Shown here: positions 53,771-57,223 of the stretch, piece by piece
Position numbering within the stretch: the stretch's first letter is position 1
Layout of the letters: the number at the start of each line of letters is the position of its first letter
Source: Rosistilla carotiformis
GTDB taxonomy: Bacteria; Planctomycetota; Planctomycetia; Pirellulales; Pirellulaceae
NCBI RefSeq assembly: GCF_007753095.1
Contig: NZ_CP036348.1
Span: 3,162,001-3,226,000 of the forward strand
Direction of reading: 5' to 3'
DNA: 64,000 bases
Notes under the pieces: model-generated
Database searches by the model: none
What the model was told of the DNA's origin: nothing
What the model saw: the letters and a program-made list of their open reading frames with translations, nothing else
Translations under genes and position numbers: made by a program

Positions 53771-54714
53771 CACCCTCCCCAAAACGCAGTTTAGGGGAGG
53801 GTCGAACGAGCGCAGCGAAGTTCGGGGAGGGGCGTCCGCGGCAAATCTCCAAGCGTTTTGACTCCTCAGACTGCCCTCCCCGTAAAACTCGCTCGGCGCT
53901 TGTTTTACGCCCCTCCCGGCTGCCGCCGGGCGGGTGAAGCGTTTGGATGCGCAGGGTGAAACTTCACCCTCCCCAAAACGCAGTTTAGGGGAGGGTCGAA
54001 CGAGCGCAGCGAAGTTCGTTGAGGGGCGGCCGCGGCAAATCTCCCAGTGTTTTGACGCGTCAGACTGCCCTCCCCGTAAAACTCGCTAAACGCTTGTTTT
54101 ACGACCCTCCCGTCTGCCGCCGGGCGGGTGAAGTGTTTGGATGCGCAACGCGACACTTCACCCTCCCCAAAACGAAGTTTAGGGTGAGGGTCGAACGAGC
54201 GCAGCGCAGTTCGGGGCGGGCGTCCGCGGCAAATCTCCCAGTGTTTGACGCATCAGTTTGCCCTCCCCGTAAAACTTGCTAAACGCTTGTTTTACGACCC
54301 TCCCGTCTGCCGCCGGGCGGGTGAAGTGTTTGGTTGGGCAATGCGACACTTCACCCTCCCCAAAACGCAGTTTAGGGGAGGGTCGAACGAGCGCAGCGCA
54401 GTTCGGGGAGGGGCGTCCGCGGCAAGTCTCCCAGCGTTTTGACGCGTCAGACTGCCCTCCACGTAAAACTTGCTAAACGCTTCACCCTCCCAGCTGTCGC
54501 CGGGCGGGTGAAGCGTTTGGATGCGCAGCGCGAAGCTTCACCCTCCCCAAAACGAAGTTTAGAGGAGGGTCGAACGAGCGCAGCGCAGTTCGGGGAGGGG
54601 CGTCCGCGGCAAATCTCCCAGTGTTTGACGCGTCAGTTTGCCCTCCCCGTAAAACTTGCTAAACGCTTGTTTTACGACCCTCCCGGGCGGCCGCGGGGCG
54701 GGTGAAGCGGTGGC
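53771..54714. repeat. Five tandem copies of a GC-rich unit of about 194 bp
   Basis: Copies start at about 53771, 53965, 54159, 54352 and 54539, with spacings of 194, 194, 193 and 187 bases; the fourth is shorter. Each opens with CCCTCCCCAAAACG and GGGGAGGG, which can pair, and contains a second pair GTAAAAC / GTTTTAC flanked by CCCTCCC. Open frames run through the array, but 194 is not a multiple of three, so the frame shifts in every copy and coding is unlikely. The array lies in the divergent gap between the deacetylase and the M19-like gene. Confidence 0.9.
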
Positions 54715-54834: not shown

Positions 54835-56160
54835 ATGCTGCATCGACGACAACTTTTGGGCTCCCTTGGCACCGCGGCGCTGTTGACTGCTGGACTTCGG
54901 AATACGGCGCTATCGGCTGACGATGCAAGCGATCCGGTTGCGGAGCTCTCGACGCGTTTGAATCCTAACATCCAAGCGGCTCGCGAGACGGCGCTGCAGA
55001 TCCTCAAACCTTCGCCGGCGGAACTCGATCGCGGGCTGCGACTGCACGCCGAATCGATCGTCTTCGATTCTTACGGCTTCTCGCCCCGCGCGGCTGTCGA
55101 TGGGGATGCAATCGCTGCGGCGATCGAGGCGGGAGCGTCGCACGATCAGGTCAAGGACATGAAAGAAGAGATGTCGATGACGCGGTACGTCAGCGATCCC
55201 GTCGAGCAGCAGGAGTATCGCGACGCGTGGCGCGCCTCGGGCGTGACCTGCGTTTTCCAGAACGCGGGCGAAGAGGGACAGGATCCGCTGCGGCTGATGC
55301 GGCGACTGTCGCGGTTCACCTACGCAACGGATCTGATGCGCGGGTTCGTCAGCAAAGCCGCGGTGCCTGCCGATGTGGAGACGGCCAAACGCGAAGGACG
55401 CCACTGTCTCTATCTGACCGGCAACGGAGTGCCACTGAGGCAGCAATGGGAATCGATCCCCGACGAACTCCGCTACATGCAGGTCTTCTATCACCTGGGG
55501 ATCCGGATGATGCACCTGACCTACCAGCGACGGAACATGATCGGCGACGGTTGCGGTGAGAAGAGTGATGCCGGGCTCAGCGACTTTGGCCACGCGGCGA
55601 TCGCTGAAATGAATCGCTTGGGCATCATTCCCGATTGTGCCCACAGCGGTTGGAAGACGAGTCTCGAAGCGGCGCAGTCCTCTTCGCGGCCGATGGTCGC
55701 CAGCCACAGCACCTGCGGCGCGATCCATCCACACATTCGCAGCAAACCCGACGAAGTGATTCGGGCGATCGTCGATACCGGCGGTTACATCGGGATCTGC
55801 TGTATTCCCAGATACCTTCGCGGCAGCGGTGATATCACCGCGATGTTGGACCACATCGACTATGCTGTCAAAAAATTTGGTCCCGATGCGGTCGCGATCG
55901 GGACCGATGTCGCTTACAACTCGCAGAATGCGGGGCGTGAGCTAGCTAAGCTGCCGCGGATGTCGAAGCAATATCAGCCGTTTCGATCGCTGTGGCCGGC
56001 GGACGATTACAAAACGCTGCCAGGAGCTGCTCAAAGCATCGCCTGGACCAACTGGCCGCTGTTCACCGTCGGCCTGGTACAGCGTGGGCACAGCGACGAA
56101 GTGATTCGCAAAATCATCGGCGGCAACGTGATGCGGGTGATCAACGCTTCGATGACTTAA
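54835..56160 (+). CDS. M19 (membrane dipeptidase)-like exported protein
   Basis: Protein of 441 residues with a Tat-like signal (MLHRRQLLGSLGTAALLTAGL). Family residues of the second metal site are kept: H270 in IIPDCAHSGW, H291 in VASHSTCGA, R302 in HIRSKPDE and D358 in IGTDVAY. The first motif, normally DGHNDLP, reads FDSYGFSP with Y80 and F82 in place of His and Asp. The loop normally holding the bridging Glu reads LYLTGNG (193-198) and has no Glu. The protein is therefore an M19 relative that may not hydrolyse dipeptides in the usual way. It follows the tandem repeat array and precedes a lipoprotein gene. Confidence 0.82.
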   Translation: MLHRRQLLGSLGTAALLTAGLRNTALSADDASDPVAELSTRLNPNIQAARETALQILKPSPAELDRGLRLHAESIVFDSYGFSPRAAVDGDAIAAAIEAGASHDQVKDMKEEMSMTRYVSDPVEQQEYRDAWRASGVTCVFQNAGEEGQDPLRLMRRLSRFTYATDLMRGFVSKAAVPADVETAKREGRHCLYLTGNGVPLRQQWESIPDELRYMQVFYHLGIRMMHLTYQRRNMIGDGCGEKSDAGLSDFGHAAIAEMNRLGIIPDCAHSGWKTSLEAAQSSSRPMVASHSTCGAIHPHIRSKPDEVIRAIVDTGGYIGICCIPRYLRGSGDITAMLDHIDYAVKKFGPDAVAIGTDVAYNSQNAGRELAKLPRMSKQYQPFRSLWPADDYKTLPGAAQSIAWTNWPLFTVGLVQRGHSDEVIRKIIGGNVMRVINASMT

Positions 56161-56314
56161 ACGATTGGGTAATCCCGTCCGCTGAATTCATACAGCTGTC
56201 GCGGCGACTGGTCGATACTACACCTCGACGGCCAGTAGCCCTTGCGGCATCGCATTGGATGCGACTATACGGTCGTCTCGCAGCGGTGATCTTTGAAGCC
56301 TGAGGTGTTTGTCT

Positions 56315-57223
56315 ATGTCGTGCGATGTTCGGAACCGGAACGTATCTTCGTTGCTGGCCGGATTGCTAGCGGTTGCCGCGATCCATTGCAGCGGATGCCG
56401 CGTGTTGGCTCCCGTTCCGATCCCCGTCGAGAGTCAACAGATGGCTCCCGAATTGGTCGATTCGAAATCTCCGCAAGTCGAAATTGGCCGGCCGCAACCG
56501 ATCATCGACGGGATCGGCTGGGTCGTTGGCATTCCCGATAAGATCCTGCTGTGGGATCGACGAATCGATCGGCACAAGATCTCCGAAGAGACGATCGATT
56601 CGACCGTCGATTATTTGCAGGCGAACAACCTGCCGCATATCAAGGTCCGCGCGAACCAATACAATCCGCTGGACGATTGGCATCGGCTGACGCAGAACAA
56701 AACCGTCGCTTGGCCTTGGCGGTATTCGTTGGGGGCGCTGTCAGTCGCCGGCGAAACGATCTTCCCTGGCCGCATCATCGGCGGCGATCATTTCAATCCG
56801 TTCACGCAGACGATCCATCTGTACAGCGACGTCCCTGCCGTCGCGCTGCACGAAGCCGCTCACGCCAAAGACTTTACGCGGCGGACCTACCAGGGAACCT
56901 ATGCCGCTGCCTATCTATTTGTTCCACTGTGGCACGAGACCCTCGCGTCGCAAGACGTCTTTGCGTTTCTGGAAGATCGCGAGGACCGAGCCGGGCTTGT
57001 CGAAGCGAACCGCATCCTTTATCCCGCCTACGGGACCTACGTCGGCAGTACGGTCGGCAACTTCTTTCCCGCCTACTCCGCACCGTTCTATTACACCGGC
57101 GTGATCGCCGGCCATATCAACGGTCGGATGCTCAACCGGGAACTGGAGCAACAGATGCCTGCGGGACTCGTGGCAGTCAACGAACCGGTGCCGTCACAGC
57201 CGAGCGAAACCGAATCGTTTTAA
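56315..57223 (+). CDS. Putative lipoprotein with HExxH motif
   Basis: Protein of 302 residues. The N-terminus MSCDVRNRNVSSLLAGLLAVAAIHCSGC has a hydrophobic stretch ending at a Cys and is a likely lipoprotein signal. An HExxH motif HEAAH (H179, E180, H183) sits in a helix-like segment ALHEAAHAKDF, preceded by IHLYSDVPAVALHEA, as in zinc peptidases; E of EDRED lies further on. The family is not recognised and may be planctomycete-specific. ATG 56315 has GAGGTG seven bases upstream. It follows the M19-like gene by 154 bases on the same strand and is convergent to the SafE-like gene. Confidence 0.75.
   Translation: MSCDVRNRNVSSLLAGLLAVAAIHCSGCRVLAPVPIPVESQQMAPELVDSKSPQVEIGRPQPIIDGIGWVVGIPDKILLWDRRIDRHKISEETIDSTVDYLQANNLPHIKVRANQYNPLDDWHRLTQNKTVAWPWRYSLGALSVAGETIFPGRIIGGDHFNPFTQTIHLYSDVPAVALHEAAHAKDFTRRTYQGTYAAAYLFVPLWHETLASQDVFAFLEDREDRAGLVEANRILYPAYGTYVGSTVGNFFPAYSAPFYYTGVIAGHINGRMLNRELEQQMPAGLVAVNEPVPSQPSETESF

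Follow-up and report, generated by a model that had tools for sequence, protein, structure and literature searches.

The present study describes an M19-family protein of Rosistilla carotiformis which has lost the residues of the first metal site of a dipeptidase, while the remaining pocket is retained. The gene lies in the window, by which we mean the whole stretch of 64,000 nucleotides that was analysed. By homology and by fold the protein is a member of M19, and by the defining residues it is not a membrane dipeptidase. An earlier note on this DNA had treated it as a lone odd case. On the contrary, it belongs to a large division of the family that includes the structure PDB 2i5g, so a solved example of a site-lost M19 protein is already known. 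The reading which we put first, tentatively and as something short of probable, takes the protein to be an enzyme that is exported, that binds no more than one metal through H270 and H291 (H227 being a candidate third ligand) and that acts on something other than ordinary dipeptides.

Membership in M19, which the earlier note had proposed, was borne out at the level of sequence and fold. Pfam family PF01244 (Peptidase_M19) matches residues 120-437 with 198.7 bits against a cut-off of 26, and in the search of its own genome the M19 match had an E value of 2.3e-58. The strand-1 motif falls outside the Pfam match, and NCBIfam gave no name for the protein. Two other M19 genes are present in the same genome and both carry HxD, Glu and His. 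The AlphaFold2 model was built with 78 aligned sequences and has strand 1 at residues 77-81, strand 3 at 190-196, strand 4 at 225-227 and strand 6 at 288-294. As residues 77-81 make up strand 1 of the model, Y80 and F82 occupy the place of HxD. Foldseek ranked 2i5g first (E 1.1e-20). VIA-align gave GliJ with Z 39.3 (rmsd 2.1, 315 aligned), 2i5g with Z 37.8 (2.4, 309), 3id7 with Z 37.5 (2.3, 312) and 1itq with Z 37.3 (2.3, 314). The M19 TIM-barrel fold is thus present, as the top 17 VIA-align rows are all M19 by sequence too (Z 30.7-39.3) and the first row from outside M19 has a Z of only 16.3. The N-terminus looks like an export signal. The RR pair was found in at least 97% of the close-relative rows having letters there, and pLDDT is low over residues 1-30. 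Such an RR-containing signal suggests the Tat pathway, by which the protein is probably exported; this route would appear to be compatible with folding around a cofactor.

Table 1. Positions in the window of the M19 gene, its putative export signal and the active-site residues of its product
Feature	Position	Strand	Evidence
M19-family ORF, 441 aa, ATG start	54835..56160	+	PF01244 198.7 bits; AlphaFold2 mean pLDDT 93.0, pTM 0.90
N-terminal export signal, probably twin-arginine (HRRQLLG), extent approximate	54835..54924	+	Sequence, RR conservation, low pLDDT
Y80-G81-F82, strand-1 motif in place of HxD (DPEP1 H20/D22)	55072..55080	+	127 distinct N-type: position 80 Tyr 120, Phe 7; position 82 Phe 125, Leu 2
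N197, strand 3, bridging Glu position (DPEP1 E125)	55423..55425	+	127/127 distinct N-type
H227, strand 4 (DPEP1 T149), candidate replacement metal ligand	55513..55515	+	127/127 distinct N-type; Gln in 29/30 other site-lost; Gln or His in 0/29 Glu-keepers
Y230, position of catalytic H152 of DPEP1	55522..55524	+	127/127 distinct N-type
H270 (DPEP1 H198), kept metal ligand	55642..55644	+	186/186 distinct M19 proteins
H291 (DPEP1 H219), kept metal ligand	55705..55707	+	186/186 distinct M19 proteins
R302 (DPEP1 R230), presumed substrate-carboxylate Arg	55738..55740	+	186/186 distinct M19 proteins
D358 (DPEP1 D288), strand-8 Asp	55906..55908	+	187 rows (186 distinct): Asp 184, Glu 1 (L169), 2 too short

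For comparison with DPEP1, positions were taken from the 1itq row aligned to an M19 protein of the same genome (L001) and joined to the protein of the window through alignment A1. Since the large alignment is gapped at the bridging residue, this residue was identified by counting from the partner of T195; the stretch is ungapped in alignment A1. H20, D22, E125 and H152 of DPEP1 correspond to Y80, F82, N197 and Y230, and T149 corresponds to H227. H198, H219, R230 and D288 correspond to H270, H291, R302 and D358 and are unchanged. We take the DPEP1 residues to have their usual metal-ligand roles, R302 to be the substrate Arg and D358 the acid/base of strand 8. Among the relatives sharing the replacements, referred to here as N-type, neither His nor Asp stands in the strand-1 motif in any of 127 distinct proteins, and the bridging Glu and the catalytic H152 of a membrane dipeptidase are likewise absent (N197 and Y230, each in 127/127), while its beta-site His pair, Arg and strand-8 Asp are all found. 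DPEP1 and Streptomyces Sco3058 (3id7) share the fold and H198/H219/R230/D288 with the protein of the window, but both have the full set of H20, D22, E125 and H152, and all four differ here.

The earlier note had assigned Y80 and F82 to the first-motif His and Asp and had seen no acid at the bridging position; its residue numbers are all correct, and Asn stands at the bridge throughout the N-type. It had missed two further changes, H152 to Y230 and T149 to H227. The statement that the second site is kept holds in part only. H270, H291, R302 and D358 are indeed present, but R302 and D358 are presumably not metal ligands, and since the bridging Glu belongs to the first site and the second alike, the second too is without its carboxylate. 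The claim that standard binuclear M19 chemistry is lost is well supported by the absence of the ligands in 127/127 distinct N-type proteins and by the strand-1 placement in the model. As to an alternative His or acid for the first site, the alignment gave none that is new at positions 80-82, and H227 on strand 4 is present exactly when the site is lost, its place being taken by Gln in the sister group. The sole conserved acid on strand 1 is D78 (Asp or Glu), which is equally frequent in canonical members.

A search for members sharing the replacements led to the 127 distinct N-type relatives. From the scan of species genomes, the best 80 of 108 confirmed relatives were kept as loci, with 58-76% identity; their records are named Planctomycetota, Verrucomicrobia, Acidobacteria and Armatimonadota and are mostly metagenome-assembled. 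These loci together with the genomes of relatives gave a close-relative set, without the own-genome loci L002 and L004, of 93 rows, 87 of them distinct (6 genes occur twice). Y80, F82, N197, H227, Y230, H270, H291, R302 and D358 are identical in all the 93 rows. Addition of 24 more distant members (32-55% identity) brought the number to 128 N-type rows, which stand for 127 distinct proteins, 102 of them at less than 90% mutual identity; the protein of the window is present twice, as query and as L002, so that 187 rows of M19 proteins likewise stand for 186. Proteins shorter than 280 aa were excluded from the wide set, which went from 179 to 162 after removal of duplicates. Down to 32% identity, N197, H227, Y230, H270, H291 and R302 are present in 127/127 distinct N-type proteins, and position 80 is always aromatic. 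D358 is present in 126/126 of those reaching the position, the remaining row being cut.

The replacements could in principle be an artefact, that is a sequencing error, a frameshift or a pseudogene of a canonical M19 protein. The chance of this is negligible. Nothing in the window copy points to it, and only one relative, in genome G017, is split over two frames; against it stand the open frame, the copies with 99% and 96% identity that two congeners carry and the conservation in 87 distinct close relatives, by which this reading was refuted. The distribution of the N-type is patchy. At E <= 1e-60, 18 of 294 genomes from the phylum of the window have it, own genome counted, as do 22 of 194 from the phylum to which a Verrucomicrobiales locus belongs, seed counted. 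The phylum sample of a Solibacteraceae locus gave matches at E <= 1e-20 in 55 of 199 genomes, among which only that of the seed (63%) exceeded 42% identity. No description of the N-type was found in the open-access library searched. A tandem pair of N-type M19 genes (L126/L130, G341:C57:7376-9828) has a Y-x-Leu strand-1 motif in both copies.

Loss of the strand-1 His and loss of the bridging Glu coincide in all the 185 distinct M19 proteins having both positions, in a set of 186. His at position 80 goes with the bridging Glu in 28/28 cases, and the 157 proteins lacking this His all lack the Glu as well; in L170 strand 1 is gapped and Glu is present. Of the 157 site-lost proteins, 156 have Gln or His at position 227, and 29/29 Glu-keepers have Thr, Gly or Ser there, the canonical members being mostly planctomycete renal-dipeptidase-like proteins and a narrow sample of two-metal M19. 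Position 230 is looser, with Tyr in 5 of 29 Glu-keepers and a residue other than Tyr in 7 of 157 site-lost proteins. The five Glu-keepers with Tyr230 have odd strand-1 motifs, HxH or a shifted HxD (L134 twice, L136, L168 and L175). Among these L136, L168 and L175 combine an HxH-like motif (SLHEH or SFHEH) with the kept Glu and Tyr at 230, which is an HxH metal motif inside M19. Two site-lost proteins are of neither type described here: L149 has Gly at the bridge and Asn at 230, and L169 has His at the bridge, Ile at 227 and Glu at 358, a third way of altering the centre.

The tree was calculated from 82 of 163 rows and 348 columns, with the 10 trait columns left out. All the 30 sampled N-type rows lie on one side of a branch (SH-aLRT 86; 29 starred at 95). 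A first quick tree had split the site-lost rows, with 3 changes. When the 53 site-lost rows, a group named with the first tree already in view, were forced together, the likelihood was better by 48 units (p-AU 0.95). Multiple independent losses were therefore dropped, and a single origin of the site loss suffices for the tree. Because one origin fits, few independent events stand behind the co-occurrence counts, much of which may be shared ancestry. A phylogenetically independent test of the coupling between HxD and Glu could draw on no more than 1-3 independent pairs and gave p=1 in the sign test, and the coupling should be read as a count and not as a statistic.

A second site-lost group, which we call Q-type, is defined by Gln both at the bridge and at 227. 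It was collected from plasmids (6 records taken from the 60 listed out of 362) and from genomes of the phylum of the Solibacteraceae locus. The group is diverse. All 28 rows have Gln at both positions and are without the strand-1 His, and position 230 is Tyr in 23 and His in 5. The protein of the window does not fall under this definition, having Asn and His instead of Gln and Gln, and lies on the same side of the tree as the Q-type; the Q-type rows also differ from it in being without residues 100-117. The P. aeruginosa 'amidohydrolase' 2i5g has the same M19 fold, has likewise lost HxD (IDGLIIAKW), has Tyr in place of H152 (MCYN) and has kept both beta-site His, the Arg and the Asp, but it carries Gln (GFQ) at the bridging position where the protein of the window has Asn, and the two are 28% identical. 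2i5g is presumably PA5396, a gene of the dgc (dimethylglycine) operon; nothing on PA5396 was found in the open-access library searched. A relation of 2i5g to the 'membrane dipeptidase' found in dgc operons is probable. In Pseudomonas the genes grouped with the dgc operon include a 'membrane dipeptidase', which root exudates induce together with it (PMC8079746), and in Vibrio natriegens a predicted dipeptidase adjoins dgcAB, in the same place as in P. aeruginosa (PMC12093977). A Phaeobacter Q-type gene shares one stretch with sarcosine oxidase subunits, a BCCT transporter and an FAD-dependent oxidoreductase.

Three Q-type examples (L133, L135 and L137) are publicly annotated as 'membrane dipeptidase', a name which is thus given to site-lost M19 proteins without the residues defining that activity. 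Five positions (80, 82, 197, 227 and 230) act as a switch which splits two-metal from site-lost proteins almost cleanly, and re-annotation from sequence is therefore possible; it could cover the unexplained 'dipeptidase' of dgc operons as well. The natural series H-D/E/T/H, L/Q/Q/Y and Y-F/N/H/Y offers material for asking how a two-metal hydrolase might lose a metal and keep its pocket.

We propose that the protein is a TIM-barrel enzyme of the M19/amidohydrolase superfamily, exported and probably Tat-secreted, in which the alpha metal site would have been dismantled in a coordinated manner: HxD became aromatic-x-Phe, the bridging Glu became Asn, His152 became Tyr and Thr149 became His. The barrel, the histidines of strands 5 and 6, the substrate Arg and the strand-8 Asp have been retained. 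One divalent metal could be bound by H270 and H291, with H227 of strand 4 as a third ligand replacing the strand-3 Glu. D358 would activate water or transfer a proton, and R302 would anchor a carboxylate. Ordinary dipeptides would not be its substrate; it might instead act on an amide, an ester or a lactone encountered in the breakdown of extracellular polymers. Residue 227 would face the barrel, judging from the alternation of polar 227/229 and hydrophobic 226/228. H227 had also been considered as the counterpart of the carboxylated Lys of phosphotriesterase, and this was rejected (profile comparison probability 2.9). Invariant residues occur at strand C-termini in 12 of 37 cases against 19% expected (p=0.035), a weak enrichment over a span chosen by the analyst.

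A single metal with an altered first site has parallels elsewhere. In the single-metal NagA of E. coli and V. cholerae the strand-1 HxH is replaced by QxN (PMC6016474), and in molinate hydrolase, a single-metal amidohydrolase, an alpha-site His is replaced by Asn (PMC4407906); for T. maritima NagA the latter source places Glu115 at the metal site. The former source describes mycobacterial NagA with QxN or AxA for HxH together with mutants that lose activity, so loss of the first site is not always tolerated (PMC6016474). The likeness of NagA to the protein of the window lies in the replaced strand-1 motif, the single metal there being an analogy only, and NagA differs in family and in substrate. 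A single-metal site of the NagA type retains the strand-3 Glu as a metal ligand, whereas the protein of the window has Asn, and for this reason a metal-free site is possible.

An enzyme of that kind, in which H270, H291, D358 and R302 would serve as acid-base and binding residues, is in our estimate somewhat unlikely. LigI is an amidohydrolase-fold enzyme that works without a metal. Both charge-balancing carboxylates (the equivalents of D22 and E125) are gone in 127/127 distinct N-type proteins, the strand-1 His and the bridging Glu are also missing in 28/28 Q-type rows, and a one-metal site is only slightly more economical than a metal-free one. However, H270 and H291 are kept in 186/186 distinct proteins, canonical binuclear ones included, and a new His, H227, arises in the N-type. 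A more specific form of the single-metal reading, which we consider rather doubtful, is that H227, H270 and H291 of strands 4, 5 and 6 make a three-His single-metal centre in which Tyr230 and Asn197 form a new substrate pocket. This would be a new type of active site in the amidohydrolase superfamily, with a reaction not known for M19.

It could also be that the first site has been rebuilt from elsewhere, for example from H71, D78, D238 and E242, and that the protein is still a binuclear hydrolase. H71 and E242 are invariant and D238 is found in 126 of 128 N-type rows, but many canonical members with a normal first site have H71 and D78 as well, so that these two did not arise as replacements, and no new acid or His has appeared at 80-82, so we hold this to be very improbable. 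The earlier note had suggested a different reaction or a binding role. The first of these is plausible and purely binding function is disfavoured. Human DPEP3 (6vgo) is likewise an M19 protein minus a metal ligand, with Tyr at the H198 position, from which it follows that M19 proteins can lose ligands; it has lost a beta-site His and kept HxD, the reverse of the protein of the window. DPEP3 has been argued to be non-catalytic, and PvdM may be likewise. A non-catalytic pseudo-enzyme with a binding or chaperone-like role would agree with the loss of HxD, the bridging Glu and H152, by which the known dipeptidase machinery is removed. Pseudo-enzymes usually let their pocket residues drift, but the rest of the pocket here, charged residues too, is invariant down to 32% identity, and such a role is distinctly unlikely. 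That the pocket has not drifted while two thirds of the sequence varies favours an active over a dead site, and so does the new invariant His and Asn which accompany the loss.

The M19 gene of the window appears to stand alone. When the two nearest genes on each side were compared over 101 loci, no cluster recurred in more than 8. A cruder clustering of whole flanks from 81 stretches gave larger clusters, such as sulfatase at 16 loci and DUF1501 at 14, but in 72 of the stretches it picked up the M19 gene, and in the 16-locus cluster several entries are antisense ORFs over that gene. Ten clusters, scanned with one representative each, included sulfatase, DUF1501, PSCyt/PSD1, TPR/FG-GAP, GFO/IDH/MocA and ABC transporter families and others. 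Most of these neighbour families are abundant in planctomycetes. Some genomes of the phylum of the Verrucomicrobiales locus have class II aldolase (3 loci), LepA (5), HIT (5) or pilin-like (6) neighbours, and a 3-keto-disaccharide hydrolase and a DMFA2_C protein lie next to the M19 gene of locus L084. An operon or pathway as a clue to the substrate was given up because the neighbourhoods are too mixed, and for the same reason no substrate can be named; as the neighbours are not conserved, the enzymatic role has no backing from a pathway. At three loci of the Verrucomicrobiales-locus phylum (L212, L215 and L220), the N-type gene stands in an apparent operon with class II aldolase and lepA, as seen by cluster membership and, for L220, by scanning of the proteins.

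Two other elements were observed beside the gene. An unrelated ORF of 304 aa (56309-57223) starts 148 bases downstream and codes for a secreted-looking, lipoprotein-like product with an HEAAH (HExxH) motif. It had no match in Pfam or NCBIfam and, from its motif, is possibly an unrecognised metalloprotease-type protein. Upstream of the gene, a tandem array of 0.9 kb (window 53771-54709) has a period of 194 and 4.9 copies, with no Rfam match to its unit. One unit gave 109 matches in the own genome, in 34 groups of 1-7 units, with spacing within groups mainly of two classes, about 180-184 and 192-195 bases. Likeness is 90-93% inside the array of the window and 69-82% for matches of at least about 110 bases elsewhere. 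The repeats form a family of satellite-like arrays that is dispersed over the genome and homogenised locally.
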